A stretch of 34,084 nt of DNA from Candidatus Acutalibacter pullistercoris (GCA_019115285.1 DXDU01000094.1:1-34084); one strand, 5' to 3'; shown: positions 4,653-18,466, counted from the first letter of the stretch. Notes: generated by a model from the sequence alone, not told the origin. A program made the numbers and translations.

Positions 4653-6059
4653 ATGCGACCTTACATCCACAAAGACTTCCTGCTGTCCACCCCCGCCGCC
4701 CGGGAGCTTTACCACCGCTTTGGGGAAGGCCAGCCCATTTTCGACTTTCACTGCCATTTAAGCCCCAAGGAGATCCGGGAGGACCAGCGGTTTGAGACCA
4801 TCACCCAGGTGTGGCTCTCGGGGGACCACTACAAGTGGCGGCTCATGCGGGCAAACGGGGTGCCCGAGGAGCTCATCACCGGGGACGGGGACCCCTACGA
4901 GAAGTTCTTAGCCTGGGCCCGCACCGTGGAAAAGAGCGTGGGAAACCCCCTCTACGCCTGGACCCACATGGAATTGAAAAACTACTTCGGGGTAGAGGAA
5001 CTCCTCAGCGAGAAGACCGCCCCCGCCATCTGGCAGGCCTGCAATGAAAAGCTGCAAGAGCCCGGCTTCTCCGCCCGGGGGCTGATTGTACAGAGCAATG
5101 TAAAGGCCCTGTGCACCACCGACGACCCGGTGGACAGCTTAGAGCACCACGCCGCCCTGGTCGCTGACGGCAGCTTCCCGGTGCAGGTGCTCCCCGCCTT
5201 CCGGCCGGAGACCGCCCTGCACCCGGAGCAGGCAAACTTCCGGGACTGGGTGGGCCGTTTGGGGCAGGTCACCGGCAAGGCTATCGCTTCCCTCTGCGAT
5301 CTGGAAGAAGCCCTTTCCCAGCGGGCTTTCTATTTTAAAGAGAGAGGCTGCCTCATCGCCGACCAGAGCCTGCAGTCCCCGGACTTTACCGCAGGCACCA
5401 GGCAGGAGGCGGAGGCCGCTTTCCAAAAGGCACTCTCCGGGGAGGCCCTCTCCCCCGCCGAACAGAACGCCTACCAGACCCAGCTTCTGATCAGCCTGGG
5501 GCGGCTGTACAAGAAAGCGGGCTTTGTGATGCAGCTCCACTTCGGGGTGCTGCGCAACACCAACTCACGGATGTTCCCCCTCACCGGGCCGGACGCGGGC
5601 TTTGACTGCGTGGGAGACGGGGTCAGCGCCGCCTCCATGGCCGCCCTGTTCGACGCATTGGACAAGACGGACGAGCTGCCCCCCACGGTGATCTACTCCC
5701 TGAACGCCTGCGACGACGATAAGCTGGCCAGCGTCCTGGGGGCCTTCCAGCAGGGGACCTTCCCCCAGAAGATGCAGCTGGGAGCGCCCTGGTGGTTCTC
5801 CGACCACAAGGACGGCATGGTGAAGATGATGAAGGCCTTGGCCAACACCGGGCTGCTCTCCGGGTTTATCGGCATGCTCACCGACTCCCGCAGCTTCCTC
5901 TCCTACGCCCGGCACGAGTACTTCCGCCGGGTGCTCTGTAACCTGCTGGGCCAGTGGATGGAGGACGGGGAGATCCCCCAGGACTACGAGCTCGTCGGCC
6001 CCATGGTACGGGACATCTGCTACGGCAACGCCGCCGCCTATTTTGGCCTAGGGAAATAA
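4653..6059 (+). CDS. uxaC: Glucuronate isomerase
   Basis: 468 aa; IHKDFLLSTPAARELYHRF...PIFDFHCHLSPKEI is characteristic of UxaC. Confidence 0.96.
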   Translation: MRPYIHKDFLLSTPAARELYHRFGEGQPIFDFHCHLSPKEIREDQRFETITQVWLSGDHYKWRLMRANGVPEELITGDGDPYEKFLAWARTVEKSVGNPLYAWTHMELKNYFGVEELLSEKTAPAIWQACNEKLQEPGFSARGLIVQSNVKALCTTDDPVDSLEHHAALVADGSFPVQVLPAFRPETALHPEQANFRDWVGRLGQVTGKAIASLCDLEEALSQRAFYFKERGCLIADQSLQSPDFTAGTRQEAEAAFQKALSGEALSPAEQNAYQTQLLISLGRLYKKAGFVMQLHFGVLRNTNSRMFPLTGPDAGFDCVGDGVSAASMAALFDALDKTDELPPTVIYSLNACDDDKLASVLGAFQQGTFPQKMQLGAPWWFSDHKDGMVKMMKALANTGLLSGFIGMLTDSRSFLSYARHEYFRRVLCNLLGQWMEDGEIPQDYELVGPMVRDICYGNAAAYFGLGK

Positions 6060-10721: not shown

Positions 10722-12788
10722 TTACCTCGCTCCCCACCCGGTGTTGGGCCTTCTGCCCATGGTGAGCACCAGCTCCCCGCCCTGAATGAGGTCCTGGTGG
10801 CGGAGGAAGGGCGTCTCCAGGGGCTTGCCGTTCAGGGACGCCGCCTGGATGTACCGCAACCCCTCCCCGGCCCCTTTGCTCACCACCCGGAAGACCTTGC
10901 CGTGTTCCAGCAGCAGCTGGGCCTCATCGAACAGGGGGGTGCCCAGGGCGTACTCCGGCTTGCCGGGGCACACGGGGTAGAACCCCAGGGCGGAGAACAC
11001 CAGCCAGCTGGACATTGCTCCCCCGTCCTCGTCGCCACAAATGCCTGTGGGGGAATCGGTAAACCACAGGTCCATCAGCTCCCGCAGGCGGCGCTGGGCC
11101 TTCCAGGGGGCGCCGTAGTAATCGTACAGATAGGGGATGTGGAAGGAGGGCTCGTTCCCCATGGAGAACTGGCCCATCAGGCCGGTGGAGTCCGGGAACT
11201 GCCCCAAAAATAGGTACTTGCTCTTCCCCGCCTGGTGGAACCCCTCCCGGAAGAGCTGGTCCAGCTTCTCCACGGCCTTCTCCTTGCCGCCCATGAGCTC
11301 CGCCAGCCCTTCCGGGTCGTGGAACACCGACCAGGTGTAGGTCCAGGTGTTGTTCTCGGCGGTGTAATCCCGGCCCCCCAGGCCTCCGCCGAATTTGGGA
11401 TCGAACCCCTCCACCCAGGCGCCGTCTATGGCCCGGGGCGCCATCCACCCCAGGTCCTCCCGGTAGAGGCTGCGGTAGCCCTGGGCCCGGCGGTAGAACA
11501 GGGCCGCCTCCTCCCCGCGGCCCAGGTGCTCCGCCAGCTTTCCGGCGCACCAGTCATCGTAGCAGTGCTCCAGGGTGACCGCCACAGCCTGCCGCCTCTC
11601 AAAGGGGTCCGCCTGGGGATCGTTCTCCGGCTCTCCCTGCTGCAAGGCGGGGTAATAGCCCTTTTCCCAGTAGCACCGCTCCTTCTCCCCGGCAGGCAGC
11701 CCGCACCGCCAGGGGAGCATGGACTGCTCCAAGGCGTTTTTCCGTATGCCCTCGTAGGCGGCGGCGTAGTCGGCCTCCACCCCCTTCGCCAGGGCGTCGG
11801 CGAACAGGGACGCCCCGTGGAAGCCGATCATAAAGGGCCGGTCCCCTTCCACCCCGGGGAAGCAGGGCATCAGCCCGCTCTCACGGGTCATCTCCACATA
11901 GCTTTGCAGGATCTCCCGGTGGCGGGCCGGGTCTAACAGAAGCTGCAGGGGGTGCATGCACCGGAAGGAGTCCCACAGGCCGTCGTTGCTGTAGAACACC
12001 CCCTTGTGCACCTTCCCGTCAAAACCGCTGTAATGGGCATCCCCTTCCGTGTAGTCGGTCATCCGCTGGAAGGCCCGGTACAGCCCGGTGTAGAACACCG
12101 TCTTCTTCTCCTGGGTGTTTCCGGTGACCAGCACCTTCCCCAGCTGCCTGTCCCAGATCTGCCTGGCCTGTTCCCAGAGGGCGTCGAAGCTTTTCCCGGC
12201 GGCCTCTTCCAATAGGCTCGCCCTGGCCCGCTCCGGGGAGATCAGGGAGAGCCCTCCGGCCACGGTCACTCTCTCGCCCACCGCCAGGGTCACCTCACCC
12301 TCCCCCTGGGACACCACCTGGTACGGCCCCTCCACGGAGACGCACAGGAATTGGGTCACCGGCCGCAGTGTCCCCTGCAGGGGCAGCTGGGCGAAGAACA
12401 GCTCCCCCTCCCGCCAGACTTTCCCCTGGGGGAAGGCCAGCCGCAGCCTGTCCTGCCCTTGGAACCGGTGGACGCAGCAGTGCCTTGTCACCGTGGACTC
12501 CGCCAGGATACCATAGGGGTCCAGCTCCAGCCGATGGACGTAGCAACGGGACTCCTCCCGGCTGTGGTCCAGATAGTTTGTAAAGTCATCACCCTTGCCA
12601 GGCGTGGCGATTCCCTCCCCAAAGGGGAAGCCCACCACTCGGTCGTTGCAGTAGTAGTCGCCGCAGTCCCTTACCACCGGAGCGCTGCGGGCCTTGCCGT
12701 AGGGCAGCAGCACCTCGGGCCTGGTGGAGGTGAGCATGTGGGAGATGGTACCAATATAGGGGTTTACATAGTCCGCTAGATGTGTCAT
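10722..12788 (-). CDS. GH92-family glycosidase (alpha-1,2-mannosidase type)
   Basis: YVNPYIGT..., YSNDGLWDSFRCMHPLQLLLDP, GNEPSFHIPYLYDYYGAPWKAQ, GICGDEDGGAMSSWLVFSALGFYPVCPG. Confidence 0.93.
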   Translation of the reverse strand: MTHLADYVNPYIGTISHMLTSTRPEVLLPYGKARSAPVVRDCGDYYCNDRVVGFPFGEGIATPGKGDDFTNYLDHSREESRCYVHRLELDPYGILAESTVTRHCCVHRFQGQDRLRLAFPQGKVWREGELFFAQLPLQGTLRPVTQFLCVSVEGPYQVVSQGEGEVTLAVGERVTVAGGLSLISPERARASLLEEAAGKSFDALWEQARQIWDRQLGKVLVTGNTQEKKTVFYTGLYRAFQRMTDYTEGDAHYSGFDGKVHKGVFYSNDGLWDSFRCMHPLQLLLDPARHREILQSYVEMTRESGLMPCFPGVEGDRPFMIGFHGASLFADALAKGVEADYAAAYEGIRKNALEQSMLPWRCGLPAGEKERCYWEKGYYPALQQGEPENDPQADPFERRQAVAVTLEHCYDDWCAGKLAEHLGRGEEAALFYRRAQGYRSLYREDLGWMAPRAIDGAWVEGFDPKFGGGLGGRDYTAENNTWTYTWSVFHDPEGLAELMGGKEKAVEKLDQLFREGFHQAGKSKYLFLGQFPDSTGLMGQFSMGNEPSFHIPYLYDYYGAPWKAQRRLRELMDLWFTDSPTGICGDEDGGAMSSWLVFSALGFYPVCPGKPEYALGTPLFDEAQLLLEHGKVFRVVSKGAGEGLRYIQAASLNGKPLETPFLRHQDLIQGGELVLTMGRRPNTGWGAR

Positions 12789-12850
12789 GATAGATACTCC
12801 TTTTCTTTTTCCCAAAAGCTGGGAACGCCTCGGGAAAGACGCCCCACCCT

Positions 12851-12879: not shown

Positions 12880-13007
12880 GAGGAAAAGCGCTGGCTCATG
12901 TTTCTTTGGGAGCGGGACACCCTAAGGGAACCCCCCAGGGAAAATAAGTCAGATTTGGAAAAATAGGATACAATAGGAGTAGATTACAGCAAAAAGGAGT
13001 GGATCTC

Positions 13008-13850
13008 ATGGAACGAACCATCACTGCGGAACAGACAGCGCGCTTCGCCCAAGCATTGCAGGCCGCCGACCGCGCCCCCGGCACCATAGAAAACTACCTC
13101 CGCCACATTAGGGCCTTTGCCCGGTGGCTGGGGGACCGCCCCCTCCTCCCGGAGAGCGCCGCCCAGTGGCGGGACAGCCTTTTGGAGCAGGGCTACACCC
13201 CCGGCACTGTCAACAGTATGATCGGGCCATTGAACCGGTTCTTCCAGTTTCTGGGGTGGAATGAGTGTAAAGCGAAACAGCTTCGCATCCAGCGGCAGCT
13301 GTTCCGGGAGAACCAGAAGGAGCTCACCCGGGGAGAGTACCACCGGCTGCTGTCCACGGCACAATCGTCCGGCCGGGAGCGATTGGCGCTTTTAATGGAG
13401 GCCATCTGCGCCACGGGGATACGGGTCAGCGAGGTGCAATATCTGACAGTGGAGTCCGTTCGGGCTGGCAAAGCCGAGATTTCTTTAAAAGGAAAAATCC
13501 GCACCATCCTCATCCCGGGGAAGCTGCGGAAGAAGCTCCTTTCCTATACAAAACGAAAAAATACCGCCTCCGGGCCGGTGTTCCGGACCAGAAGCGGCTG
13601 TCCAATCTCCAGAAAGCAGATTTGGGCGGAGATGAAGTCTCTCTGCAAAAAAGCCGGGGTGGCGGCCAGCAAGGTCTTCCCTCACAATCTCAGGCACCTG
13701 TTTGCCCGGGTGTTTTACCAGGCGTCGAGGGATGTCGCCAAACTGGCGGACGTGCTGGGCCACAGCTCCATCGAGACCACCAGGATCTACCTGATCTCCA
13801 CCGGGCGGGAGCACGAACGCACCCTCAACCGACTGGGGCTGGTCACCTAG
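13008..13850 (+). CDS. Tyrosine-type site-specific recombinase (intact catalytic set)
   Basis: ATGIRVSEV (Arg I), LKGKIR (Lys), HNLRH, LGHSSIETTRIYL (His/Tyr). ATG at 13008 preferred over GTG 12999 because of RBS spacing. Confidence 0.95.
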   Translation: MERTITAEQTARFAQALQAADRAPGTIENYLRHIRAFARWLGDRPLLPESAAQWRDSLLEQGYTPGTVNSMIGPLNRFFQFLGWNECKAKQLRIQRQLFRENQKELTRGEYHRLLSTAQSSGRERLALLMEAICATGIRVSEVQYLTVESVRAGKAEISLKGKIRTILIPGKLRKKLLSYTKRKNTASGPVFRTRSGCPISRKQIWAEMKSLCKKAGVAASKVFPHNLRHLFARVFYQASRDVAKLADVLGHSSIETTRIYLISTGREHERTLNRLGLVT

Positions 13851-13851
13851 G

Positions 13852-13869
13852 CAATCTGAATAGATTGTC
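13852..13869 (+). repeat. Left inverted repeat of a putative invertible segment
   Basis: CAATCTGAATAGATTGTC; exact reverse complement at 14136-14153. Confidence 0.95.
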
Positions 13870-13941
13870 AGGAGACAGGGGCTATTCGATACATAGGAAT
13901 CGATATAATTGGTAGAAAATAAAGCTGTTATTCCATATCTG

Positions 13942-13976
13942 AAAAATAAAAAGCCCCTGAACCCGAAAGTCCAGGG
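13942..13976 (-). terminator. Intrinsic terminator inside the invertible segment, currently on the minus strand
   Basis: Reverse strand CCCTGGAC-tttcgg-GTTCAGGG-GCTTTTTATTTTT. Confidence 0.7.
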
Positions 13977-13999
13977 AAAAACACGCAGGAAACAGGCCG

Positions 14000-14023
14000 G
14001 TTGCCAAATTATTTACGCAACCA
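14000..14023. promoter_or_regulatory. Dyad-symmetric operator-like element inside the invertible segment
   Basis: GGTTGC-caaattatttac-GCAACC, upstream of the promoter. Confidence 0.4.
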
Positions 14024-14058
14024 GGCTTACTTTTTTGCGTTTAATATGCTAGATGTGC

Positions 14059-14087
14059 TTGTTTTTTTCACAACACCGTGGTACAAT
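14059..14087 (+). promoter_or_regulatory. Promoter inside the invertible segment, facing the downstream operon
   Basis: TTGTTT-N17-TACAAT with extended -10 TGg; same style as other promoters in this window. Confidence 0.75.
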
Positions 14088-14135
14088 ATCCACAAGCACT
14101 GGGAACATTGCTGTCTTTCAACACCAACCTGTAGC

Positions 14136-14153
14136 GACAATCTATTCAGATTG
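14136..14153 (-). repeat. Right inverted repeat of the putative invertible segment
   Basis: GACAATCTATTCAGATTG, exact reverse complement of 13852-13869. Confidence 0.95.
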
Positions 14154-14179
14154 TTGTCAGGTGGCACAGGAGGTGATCG

Positions 14180-14998
14180 GTAACGGATAGGACCCAAGAA
14201 AGCGCGGACCTCCGCTGGGAACAAGTGGAAGAGTATTTGCAGGAGCTGGGCCGGAAAGGCTGCGCTCCCGAGACGCTTCGCTCGTACCGGTGGAACCTGC
14301 AAGCGTTCTACAAAACGCTGCCGGAGGGCAGACTGCAGCCTGGGGCCACCCAGCGCTGGCGGGATGACCTTTTGCAGCAGGGCTACCAGCCCAACACGGT
14401 CAAGCACCGGCTGTCTTCGGTAAACGGGATGCTCTCTCACCTGGGGCTGTGGCAGTACCAGGTGGAGAACCTGCCCACCGTGGACCCAGACCTGCAGCCC
14501 TCTCTCTCCAGAGGAGAGTACCTGCGGCTGCTGCGGGCGGCTCGATCGCTGCGAAAACCCAAAGCCTATTTGCTTTGCAAGGTGATCGCCAGCACGGGGC
14601 TTGCGGTAAACTGCATGGACGCCGTGACCGTGGAGGCCGTGAAGGCCCGAGAAATCCCGCCGGTGACGGGAAAAGGGCGACCGCTCCCCCTGCCAGGGAC
14701 TTTGGCGGAAGAACTGCTGCAGTACGCAGGCGACCAGGGAATCTCCTCTGGCCCCCTGTTTGTTACCAGGACCGGCCGGCCCCTGAGCCGTGCCAACATC
14801 ACCCTGGCGGTGCAAAAGTTGGCGGAAGAAGCAGGCCTTCCCCCAGAAAAGTGCAACCCCCGGTGCCTGCAGCGGCTCTATCACACCACGCTGCAGGGCA
14901 TAGAGGACAACGTGGCGCGGCTGGCCCGGCAGGCCTACGAAAGCCTGCTGGAGCAAGAACAGCTGGCCATCGGCTGGGAGGGGGGATTCCTGCGGTAA
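14180..14998 (+). CDS. Degenerate tyrosine recombinase paralogue (predicted catalytically inactive); start codon uncertain
   Basis: Homologous to the 13008-13850 product (e.g. LSRGEYLRLLRAA vs LTRGEYHRLLSTA). Arg I region is STGLAVNCM, HxxRH region is PRCLQRLYH, terminal GHxxxxTTxxY region lost. AGGAGG RBS points to a GTA codon at 14180; first canonical start is GTG 14225. Confidence 0.85.
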   Translation, partial: VTDRTQESADLRWEQVEEYLQELGRKGCAPETLRSYRWNLQAFYKTLPEGRLQPGATQRWRDDLLQQGYQPNTVKHRLSSVNGMLSHLGLWQYQVENLPTVDPDLQPSLSRGEYLRLLRAARSLRKPKAYLLCKVIASTGLAVNCMDAVTVEAVKAREIPPVTGKGRPLPLPGTLAEELLQYAGDQGISSGPLFVTRTGRPLSRANITLAVQKLAEEAGLPPEKCNPRCLQRLYHTTLQGIEDNVARLARQAYESLLEQEQLAIGWEGGFLR

Positions 14999-15051
14999 CA
15001 AGCGCCACGTAAGACAAAACGACCTACAAATTTTAGAAATGAGGTGCAAAC

Positions 15052-18000
15052 ATGAAGCGAATGAAAAAACTGTTGGCATTCCTGCTGGCTGCCATGCTTC
15101 TGTTAAGCATGATCCCTATCTCGGCGAGTGCGTATACCACCGCAAATGTTTCGGGGTATAACATCAATGTGAGATATTCTAAAACAGACCTGGAAACATC
15201 CCGCGATGTTGATATGACCGCAAAAGTAATGTATCAAGGTCAGCTTTTAGGCACTCTGTCCATACCAGACGTTAGGCCTGAATACAACATGACATTTTCG
15301 GTTACGGGTGGCAACTACGAAATTGAAGATGTTGTGTTGACTGAAGGCGGCACTGCGCTTAGTTACATCGAGGGAGATTCCACTTCAATTACTTATCAAT
15401 TTACTGGTGACTGGGATTACCATAGCACCGCAACTGTGGAAGTAAATCTCTGCCCGCCTTATGAAAACCCCACCATTGTTGACAGGATTGATACAGCTGG
15501 ATTAATTGAATACAGAGCTTACGAGCCTGCTCTCCTGAAATTTTTAAAGCTCAATGGTGTTACTGTAGACGAATCCACTGAAATTACTGATGTCGATGTT
15601 CATTTTGTCAAGAATTATGTTTTGGGAAGCGGCGAAGCTGGCTTCGGCGATACACCCACTGGCGCAGGTCGCTTACCGTATTTTGTCGCCGTATATTCTG
15701 GCGCAGTTGATGCCGGTCAGCCAGAAAACTTCCGTTATTTGAAAATCTCTTATGAACTAGGAGATGGAACTATTGGTTCCGCGAAAGTTTATTCGGGAGA
15801 CTTACGGTTTGTCAACAAGTCCACCCTTGGAGGCAATTACCCTATCTACGAGATCGAAGCCGACAATGATGACATTTACAGCGTCGCTTTCTATAAGCAG
15901 GTTGGTGGCACTACCTCCACATGGGATCTATACGACCTACACTTTGTTGAGCGCGGCAACAACTTTGCCGACCATAAAATGCCTTCTAACCCCACGTATG
16001 GTGGCAGCATCACCTTCATCAACTGGGACCATAACGAAAATGGCGGCGACCCCTTCCTCCCCTACGAGGACATCAACGAAGACACCGTGCTTTATGGGCA
16101 GGTGCTGGTTGCAGGGAATCAGGGCGGCACAGTGCTCCACGTAATGAACACCGAGAATGCCCTTCTTAATCGTTACCTTGAACTTTATCAGGCCCAGGAA
16201 GGCGCAGACCAGAACACAACTATCAGTGACGTGGAGATCAATACCATTATGGTCTCTAGCGCCACTCAAGAAAAGAACACAAATCCCGACTTCCGTGAAA
16301 ACGGATGGAATGATGGCCATACTCATTATGTAGTACACAATCGCGAAGTACCCGGGACCGCCGCCGAAGGCTGGAATCACCATATTGCTCTTACAGATAT
16401 CGCATCTGTAACCATCAACGGTAAAGTTGGTGACAAAGAATTTAAAGTGGAAATCCCAGTGAGCGAAAACCCTGGAGACTTCAGTGTCGTCAGTGTTGAC
16501 AGTATGGAAGGCGGTGTCATGGGCATTATTGCCGAGCTGATCATCAACCCCAAGCCCGCTGACCCTGATTATGACGACTGGGGCGACGAAGAGAACCCCA
16601 CTGGCGACGACCTGTACGCCCAGACCGGCGTAGTTGTGGACTGCACCAACGGGACCGCCGGCCACACCGACGGCGAGTACGAGCTGGTGAGCACCGAAGG
16701 CACCATGAAGTGGTCTACGGAACAGAACGCCTACGTGTACGAGATTGAGGTTAAGCCTGACGCCTACGTTGGCAAGTACAACACGGAAAACACGGGCACC
16801 ACCCACACCCTCTCCCCCGACAACCAGTCCGGTACCATCGTTCTGGTGTTTAGGGACGGCAAATGGTCTGCGGTGGACGGCGAGAGCACCGTTACCTTTA
16901 CCGTTACCTGCGAAGGCGAGCAGGGTGGCGGCGACCCTGGCACGGAGCCCGAAAAGCCTGATGAAGAAGTAATCGCAACAAACTTTGGTGAGAACGCTGT
17001 AAAGGTTTTCTGCACTTGGAAGCCTGATAATCACGTTTCTAAAACCTATAATTTAACTGCTGATGCCATTGATGTTGGCGAGCCCTACCCTGACGGAGAT
17101 ACATACTACTGCGACGTTACCATTTTCGCCGCTTCTTTTGTGAGCCAGTACACGCCCGACGGCGTTAAGCACGAGCTCGCTGATGCATCCAAGAACACTG
17201 GGAGCTTCAAGCTTTACTATGACGGCGACGGCGCTAAGTGGCTGCTTGCTGAAGGTCAGAACAAGCCTTATGTGATCTTCGAAGTAACCTGCAAGGATGG
17301 CGGCAGCGGCGGAGAGCCCGAGGAACCCAATGAGCCCACTGCGCCCACCTACGATGATCTGGAAGACCTGATCAAAGTCACTGTTGACTGCACCAACACT
17401 CAGATCAATCCCGCGCACCCCAACGGGAACTATGAATTAATGCAGGGCACCTATGATGTGGTGAAGGCTTCCACTGGTGACACCTGGACCGTTACCGTTC
17501 GTTCCGGTGATTATATCGTCAATTACGAGAAGGAGAACGGCAACGTACCCCACGGCCTGACCAACGATACCGACACAGGCAGTGAAACCGTCTCTGTCGT
17601 CAAAGAAGGAGATGACTGGAAGCTGGCCAACGGCAGCGCTCCCACCACCATCACTTTCGAAGTGAAGTGCGGCAGCACTATTGTCGAGGTCCCCGGTGAG
17701 GGCGAAGACCACTGGTACCCTGTGTACGTGGACCCCGAAGACCCCACCGATCCGGACCAGACTGGCGTGTCCGATCTGTTGGAGACCGACGACCACATTC
17801 AGTACCTGTTCGGCTATCCCGACGGCAGCTTCGGGCCCGATCGGAACATGACCCGCGCCGAGGCCGCCCAGATGTTCTACAACCTCTTGAAGAACAAGAA
17901 TGTGGACGCTGAGCCCGCCTTCGACGACGTGCCCGAAGGCGCCTGGTACGCCACCCCCGTCAATGTCATGGCGGAGCTGGGCATTGTAAACGGCGTTGGC

Positions 18001-18414
18001 GACGACAAGTTCGAGCCCAACCGGGAGATCACCCGCGCTGAGTTCACCACCATGGCCATGCGCTTTGCCAAGGTGCCCTCCGGCGGCGTCAACATCTTCA
18101 CCGACGTGAACCCCGACGATTGGTTCTACAGCTACGTGGTCAACTCCATCCAGTACGGCTGGATCGAGGGCTACGGCGACGGCACCTTCCGTCCCGACCG
18201 GCTGATCACCCGCGCTGAGGTGACCACCATCGTCAACCGCATGCTGGACCGCCAGGCCGACATGGCGTATGTGATCCAGCACAGGGCCGAACTCAACCAG
18301 TTCACCGACCTGACCACCGAGCACTGGGCTTACTACACCATTGTGGAAGCCACCAACGAGCACGACTACAAGAAGCCTGCCATCGGCGAGGACTGGACCT
18401 CTCTGAAGAAGTAA
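15052..18414 (+). CDS. Large secreted surface protein with three C-terminal SLH domains
   Basis: Signal peptide MKRMKKLLAFLLAAMLLLSMIPISASA; SLH motifs FGYPDGSFGPDRNMTRAEAAQM, VNGVGDDKFEPNREITRAEFTTM, IEGYGDGTFRPDRLITRAEVTTI; three ~105-aa internal repeats. Confidence 0.95.
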   Translation: MKRMKKLLAFLLAAMLLLSMIPISASAYTTANVSGYNINVRYSKTDLETSRDVDMTAKVMYQGQLLGTLSIPDVRPEYNMTFSVTGGNYEIEDVVLTEGGTALSYIEGDSTSITYQFTGDWDYHSTATVEVNLCPPYENPTIVDRIDTAGLIEYRAYEPALLKFLKLNGVTVDESTEITDVDVHFVKNYVLGSGEAGFGDTPTGAGRLPYFVAVYSGAVDAGQPENFRYLKISYELGDGTIGSAKVYSGDLRFVNKSTLGGNYPIYEIEADNDDIYSVAFYKQVGGTTSTWDLYDLHFVERGNNFADHKMPSNPTYGGSITFINWDHNENGGDPFLPYEDINEDTVLYGQVLVAGNQGGTVLHVMNTENALLNRYLELYQAQEGADQNTTISDVEINTIMVSSATQEKNTNPDFRENGWNDGHTHYVVHNREVPGTAAEGWNHHIALTDIASVTINGKVGDKEFKVEIPVSENPGDFSVVSVDSMEGGVMGIIAELIINPKPADPDYDDWGDEENPTGDDLYAQTGVVVDCTNGTAGHTDGEYELVSTEGTMKWSTEQNAYVYEIEVKPDAYVGKYNTENTGTTHTLSPDNQSGTIVLVFRDGKWSAVDGESTVTFTVTCEGEQGGGDPGTEPEKPDEEVIATNFGENAVKVFCTWKPDNHVSKTYNLTADAIDVGEPYPDGDTYYCDVTIFAASFVSQYTPDGVKHELADASKNTGSFKLYYDGDGAKWLLAEGQNKPYVIFEVTCKDGGSGGEPEEPNEPTAPTYDDLEDLIKVTVDCTNTQINPAHPNGNYELMQGTYDVVKASTGDTWTVTVRSGDYIVNYEKENGNVPHGLTNDTDTGSETVSVVKEGDDWKLANGSAPTTITFEVKCGSTIVEVPGEGEDHWYPVYVDPEDPTDPDQTGVSDLLETDDHIQYLFGYPDGSFGPDRNMTRAEAAQMFYNLLKNKNVDAEPAFDDVPEGAWYATPVNVMAELGIVNGVGDDKFEPNREITRAEFTTMAMRFAKVPSGGVNIFTDVNPDDWFYSYVVNSIQYGWIEGYGDGTFRPDRLITRAEVTTIVNRMLDRQADMAYVIQHRAELNQFTDLTTEHWAYYTIVEATNEHDYKKPAIGEDWTSLKK

Positions 18415-18434
18415 GCTTCTCCCCTATGTAACAG

Positions 18435-18466
18435 AGATCCCCCGGGCAACCGGGGGATCTTTTTTT
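18435..18466 (+). terminator. Rho-independent terminator of the surface protein operon
   Basis: AGATCCCCCGG-gcaa-CCGGGGGATCT-TTTTTT. Confidence 0.9.

Follow-up and report, generated by a model that had tools for sequence, protein, structure and literature searches.

A probable invertible promoter and a conserved, catalytically dead recombinase paralogue at a surface-protein locus of Candidatus Acutalibacter pullistercoris

Promoter invertons are among the main means by which gut bacteria vary their surfaces, and little is known of their flip frequency or of the factors behind their bias. The locus considered here lies on a stretch of 34,084 nucleotides (nt) from Candidatus Acutalibacter pullistercoris (GCA_019115285.1, DXDU01000094.1:1-34084), which is referred to as the window and is one contig (C35) of an assembly of 2.02 Mb that is 87% complete. 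In the window an intact tyrosine recombinase gene is followed by a putative invertible promoter segment and by an operon for a catalytically dead paralogue of the recombinase and a large surface protein with SLH domains. The best explanation of the locus as a whole, and a likely one, is that the adjacent recombinase inverts a promoter segment placed over the operon of the dead paralogue and the SLH protein.

Inversion of a promoter by a tyrosine recombinase encoded beside it is a familiar, fim-like arrangement. The gene order of the fim switch is fimE-fimS-fimA, with a recombinase gene directly upstream of the promoter-bearing segment and the surface operon after it. The invertible element of Escherichia coli, of 314 base pairs (bp), and its repeats are described in PMC8777976. 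The locus in the window shares with fim a recombinase gene, a promoter-bearing invertible segment of about 300 bp and a surface operon, and also the OFF orientation, in which the promoter faces the recombinase gene. It differs from fim in its Xer-like recombinase, which is full-length and has a SAM-like domain at the N-terminus, its longer dyad sites, the intrinsic-terminator hairpins in the segment, the SLH protein instead of pili and the dead paralogue in the operon. Inverted repeats and an adjacent, presumably cognate recombinase are found at the locus itself, the outward promoter is recognised by comparison, and both orientations are found across the family of related loci.

A study published in 2025 on a defined gut community reports 33 invertons (32 of them from Clostridia), most strongly linked to one tyrosine-recombinase group, and read-supported flipping for inverton group 139 and invertase group 35, for example in Intestinimonas butyriciproducens (PMC11892184). 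Group 139 resembles the locus in the window in its Clostridia invertons and in the tyrosine-type recombinase adjoining nearly all of them, and differs from it in that neither a dead paralogue nor SLH proteins appear in the searched text (PMC11892184). The switch in the window probably belongs to this set. The CwpV switch of Clostridioides difficile, with RecV, likewise places a large cell-wall protein of a Clostridia species under the control of inversion at short repeats. That switch has its promoter external to the inverted segment, acts through a terminator within the segment and has an unlinked recombinase (PMC2784873), whereas in the window the promoter is inside the segment, which sets the locus apart from the cwpV type. 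By the original prediction, made from the sequence alone, the exact cassette of active recombinase, flip segment, inactive paralogue and SLH protein is not known as a described system. Its promoter-inversion part is of a known kind, and the novelty is the family of dead paralogues, not the switch.

The probable switch locus and its relatives

From left to right, the locus consists of an intact tyrosine recombinase gene, an 18-bp repeat, 266 nt of DNA, the inverted copy of the repeat, the recombinase paralogue, the SLH gene and a terminator-like hairpin. The first gene (12999-13850, plus strand; Pfam Phage_integrase, 8.8e-25) encodes the proposed invertase of the switch. It matches XerA/XerD models with a score below the curated XerD cut-off, and all six catalytic residues are present, as they are in 76/76 active relatives. 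Its stop lies 1 nt before the left repeat (13852-13869, plus strand; CAATCTGAATAGATTGTC), a putative recombination site with dyad symmetry about an asymmetric 6-nt spacer, TGAATA. The right repeat (14136-14153, minus strand) is complementary to it at 18 of 18 positions, compared with a same-score maximum of 9 in shuffles of the same DNA. The site core, CAATCTGAATAGATTG, occurs at two places only in the 2.02-Mb assembly, both of them at this locus. The site consensus of the family, ACATAA-N6-TTATGTtG, resembles dif half-sites, which agrees with the XerA/XerD similarity of the recombinase; unlike XerC/XerD-dif, the locus has two sites of its own, close together and inverted relative to each other, an arrangement other than that of chromosome dimer resolution. 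The segment between the repeats (13870-14135, 266 nt) has a G+C content of 41%, compared with 61% for the window.

The last gene of the switched operon (15052-18414, plus strand; Pfam SLH, 4.1e-33) encodes a 1120-amino-acid protein with SLH domains, and its start resembles a signal peptide, as in a secreted surface protein. No right-facing terminator-like site was found between the paralogue and the SLH gene in the terminator scan, and a strong intrinsic terminator-like hairpin (18433-18462, plus strand; 13 pairs, 8 of them G-C) closes the operon. The values given above bear out what the original prediction had read here: an intact tyrosine recombinase ending at 13850, perfect 18-bp inverted repeats, AT-richer DNA between them, a 1120-residue SLH surface protein and no terminator between the paralogue and the SLH gene.

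Since a single assembly gives a single orientation, relatives were used to judge inversion. They were collected by searches of the genus, the family and the order and by one scan of GTDB genomes, and the comparison set comprises 76 distinct recombinases from Clostridia with all catalytic residues and sufficient downstream DNA; a recombinase upstream of the segment and in the same direction was a collection criterion for all compared loci. The homologous layout is present in 73 of the 76 loci, where an inverted-repeat pair follows the recombinase, starting at a median of 11 nt past the stop codon and enclosing a segment with a median of 235 nt. In an earlier locus set most repeats score 13-32, compared with a typical 8 in shuffled downstream DNA, and a few pairs that score just 9-11 are singly weak. 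Three copies of the recombination site, not two, are found at L039:7107-7450 and L041:8592-8952, where two alternative inversions or a deletion would be possible.

The candidate promoter of the window, a sigma-A-like TTGTTT-17-TACAAT (14059-14087, plus strand), points towards the operon, the orientation called ON, and its -10 box ends 48 nt from the right arm. In the comparison, the best promoter-like site of each segment was taken from anywhere on both strands, and the repeats were found independently of promoters. In 67/73 segments the -10 box stands 20-60 nt inward from the arm that it faces, compared with a mean of 14.7 segments and a maximum of 26 in shuffles. The right-pointing promoter of the original prediction is present, with a geometry common to these segments; as evidence standing alone it was rejected, and it is convincing only by comparison with related loci.

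The promoter faces the operon in 22 loci, including the window, and the recombinase (OFF) in 48, and three are ambiguous. Among homologous segments, 80/80 pairs align forward if their states agree and in reverse complement if their states differ; the latter holds for 20/20 opposite-state pairs. For example, the recombinases of L139 and L143 are 90% identical, and the 184 identical positions of 225/221 in their segments appear only when one segment is reverse-complemented. A second cassette of the same genome, with its own active and dead recombinases (contig C142, locus L032), is in the OFF orientation; the contig ends just past its dead gene. Cross-talk between the two cassettes is unsupported, because their spacers differ and the site core in the window is unique in the genome.

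Taken together, these comparisons are strong evidence that segments of this locus family invert. Considering the family layout, the fixed promoter geometry, both orientations and the reverse alignment of opposite-state segments, the segment in the window is almost certainly an invertible promoter, presently ON, and the switch very probably turns the large surface protein on and off. Some points weigh against this. Taken by itself, the promoter of the window does not exceed the chance level (p=0.13 in shuffles) and is absent from the list of the strict consensus scan, and the flipping of this very segment is judged from its membership in the family. The original prediction had proposed to look in related genomes for the same cassette and for opposite orientations, and both are found there; its reading of a recombinase-encoded invertible promoter, now ON, over the dead paralogue and the SLH gene is thus supported by the related loci. 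More generally, with the reverse-alignment test across loci, single assemblies can furnish evidence for inversion even where there are no reads.

The following mechanism is proposed. The recombinase would invert the 266-nt segment between the sites at 13852-13869 and 14136-14153. In the present ON state, the promoter would drive the dead paralogue and the SLH protein, and a right-facing terminator-like hairpin upstream of it (13996-14028, plus strand; GGCCGGTTGCC...GCAACCAGGCT and then TACTTTTT) would block read-through from the recombinase gene and so insulate the operon. After inversion, transcription from the promoter would run leftward and enter the recombinase gene at its 3' end, and an intrinsic-terminator-like hairpin that now faces left (13954-13977, minus strand; 10 pairs and then CTTTTTATTT) would face the operon, as in-silico inversion of the segment places it. 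Because all compared loci have the recombinase gene ahead of the segment and in the same direction, antisense transcription of the recombinase gene in the OFF state is a general prediction for them. We infer flipping of the locus in the window, catalysis by the adjacent enzyme and transcription of the operon.

A family of catalytically dead paralogues

The paralogue (14183-14998, plus strand) has an uncertain start, either an in-frame ACG at 14183 or GTG at 14225. The GTG would remove the conserved N-terminal helix, in-frame coding similarity extends back to about 14183, and the ACG there is the sole codon suitably spaced from AGGAGG at 14168-14173; the start is probably upstream of the GTG. 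Both dead genes of the genome (14168-14185 in the window and L032:1155-1180 on the minus strand) are without a usual start codon well spaced from the Shine-Dalgarno sequence. In both, an in-frame ACG stands at the Shine-Dalgarno-spaced position, where relatives have ATG or GTG.

The inactivity that had been predicted for the paralogue is confirmed and extends to its relatives. In the R-K-H-R-H/W-Y catalytic set, the nucleophilic tyrosine is missing in 30/30 dead sequences, H-II is changed to arginine in 25/30 and the first arginine is lost in 24/30. These 30 sequences form one clade with a support of 1.0 (midpoint rooting), and a profile built from the first dead members separates dead sequences (at least 243 bits) from active ones (at most 209 bits) without overlap. 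Two conserved motifs, K-C/G/A-N/T-P-R-C-L-x-K/R-L-Y (of the KC[NT]PRCL type) and the EQ-rich LEQEQxxxGW, are invariant. The AlphaFold2 model of the paralogue (pLDDT, the predicted local distance difference test, 90.5) has a complete two-domain fold and a single long helix at the C-terminus, over the former histidine and tyrosine region; its Foldseek template-modelling score to lambda integrase on DNA is 0.66. The net charge of the catalytic domain has fallen from +17.1 in active relatives to +4.6 in the dead family, which suggests that the dead proteins contact DNA more weakly. Judged on such sequence characters, the dead paralogues make up a conserved family, and the copy in the window is no incidental relic.

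The family is uncommon, with 9 of 396 genomes of the order at the profile threshold, and it reaches beyond the family of the window's genome; the relatives named include Firmicutes bacterium CAG:94, uncultured Neglecta, Oscillibacter and metagenome-assembled genomes of Oscillospiraceae, and they place the window, which comes from a gut bacterium of the Clostridia, near the Oscillospiraceae. Assignment to a known family was rejected, because Pfam and NCBIfam give only a weak N-terminal SAM-like or XerA-like similarity and PHROGs only integrase. No description of the dead family was found in Pfam, NCBIfam, PHROGs or the open-licence literature, and open-licence papers gave nothing fitting on a catalytically inactive recombinase in a phase-variable operon, so the family is apparently undescribed. 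A phage-like origin was also rejected; one viral-contig locus was found for the dead gene (L164) and none for the active protein.

Position in the operon and possible roles of the dead paralogue

The dead genes are mostly the first genes of the switched operon. SLH genes follow such a first-position dead gene in the window and in L033, L051 and L053, and capsule or exopolysaccharide genes (Wzz, tyrosine kinase, CpsB) follow it in L034 and L035. The four-part cassette of the original prediction is therefore real in the window, but it is not universal. At L057 two dead genes stand in tandem, and in L152 and L153 the dead gene is last, after the SLH gene. At L052 the tyrosine invertase is replaced by a serine recombinase (5066-5838; Pfam Resolvase, 6.8e-29) with a 15-bp inverted repeat pair, and genes for a dead tyrosine recombinase and an SLH-like protein lie downstream. 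The dead genes of L146 (after an SLH gene), L096, L149 and L154 have no adjoining invertase, and that of L164 is paired with a SARP-type regulator. Two dead genes lie beside flagellar-type genes, at L149:4346-5447 (csrA) and at L154:4843-9150 (before fliF).

What could such a protein do? The fold and the oligomer-forming parts have been kept, every tyrosine has been lost and the catalytic domain has given up most of its positive charge; for these reasons we tentatively propose that the dead paralogue may modulate the switch that transcribes it, likeliest by assembling with the active recombinase or blocking it, which would stabilise the ON state. A more specific form of this proposal, possible but doubtful, sees in the dead paralogues a dedicated family of anti-recombinases, produced in the ON state alone, which would cap or poison the active enzyme and act as an operon-encoded feedback lock on ON. 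A conserved pseudo-enzyme that derives from an invertase and is transcribed from the switch would be a direct candidate for control of flipping bias.

The orientations of the dead-bearing operons bear on this proposal. They are ON in 11/20 assemblies compared with 11/50 others (Fisher p=0.011; p=0.018 within family f1 and p=0.022 within the genus), and a first count by adjacency only gave 10/17 compared with 12/53 (p=0.008), after which three loci with the dead gene further down the operon were added. This excess weakly supports the idea that the dead protein holds the switch ON. Several circumstances count on the other side: the excess is exploratory, with groups set after a first look and adjusted once; the loci share ancestry and the p values are not phylogenetically corrected; and state is measured only crudely by assembly consensus. 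Nor does a role confined to the poisoning of an adjacent tyrosine recombinase fit the dead genes that have no such invertase next to them (L146, L096, L149 and L154) or the one beside a serine recombinase (L052).

Some dead-gene loci have no tyrosine invertase, which makes a trans-acting role a serious though somewhat less likely alternative: the switch would work as described, and the dead paralogue would regulate transcription or other surface or flagellar operons rather than its own inversion. The dead genes of L146, of L149 by csrA, of L154 before fliF, of L164 with its SARP-type regulator and of L052 with its serine recombinase would all suit such a regulator. However, positive charge is lower in both domains than in active relatives, which argues against strong DNA binding, and the majority of members still lie in a recombinase-switched operon.

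It is unlikely that the dead paralogue is a structural partner that fills half of each synapse and sets direction, in the manner of a FimE-like bias without catalysis of its own. Homology to the adjacent invertase, the retained two-domain fold and the usual place beside the active enzyme speak for such a partner, whereas the sites are near-palindromic dyads, at least 50 cassettes work without a dead paralogue, L052 has a serine invertase, and a tetramer with two dead subunits could not finish both strand exchanges. A decaying duplicate kept by chance is very improbable: truncations or frameshifts affect a few members (L045, L097 and L150), but the 30 mostly open frames come from several families of Clostridia, form one clade and keep invariant non-catalytic motifs at 36-52% identity. 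Equally hard to credit is a fixed segment, in which past recombination would have left a promoter and a two-way terminator between the repeats; the evidence for flipping here does come from between loci and not from the same strain, but both orientations occur across loci with exact reverse-complement homology, the recombinase is intact, the repeats are perfect, and PMC11892184 reports flipping, supported by reads, for Clostridia invertons with links to a tyrosine-recombinase group.

Neighbouring genes and other operons

A divergent neighbouring gene (10722-12815, minus strand) encodes 697 amino acids and resembles, by eye, a glycoside hydrolase of the alpha-mannosidase type. An open reading frame on the minus strand (14027-15079), which overlaps the segment and the paralogue, was judged to be a shadow of the coding paralogue and was rejected. 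Single-recombinase switches in the OFF state are found at L040:2807-3625, L042 and L044, where the first operon gene encodes a zinc-ribbon/AP2-like protein and sugar-transferase genes follow; this protein is another possible operon-borne regulator.

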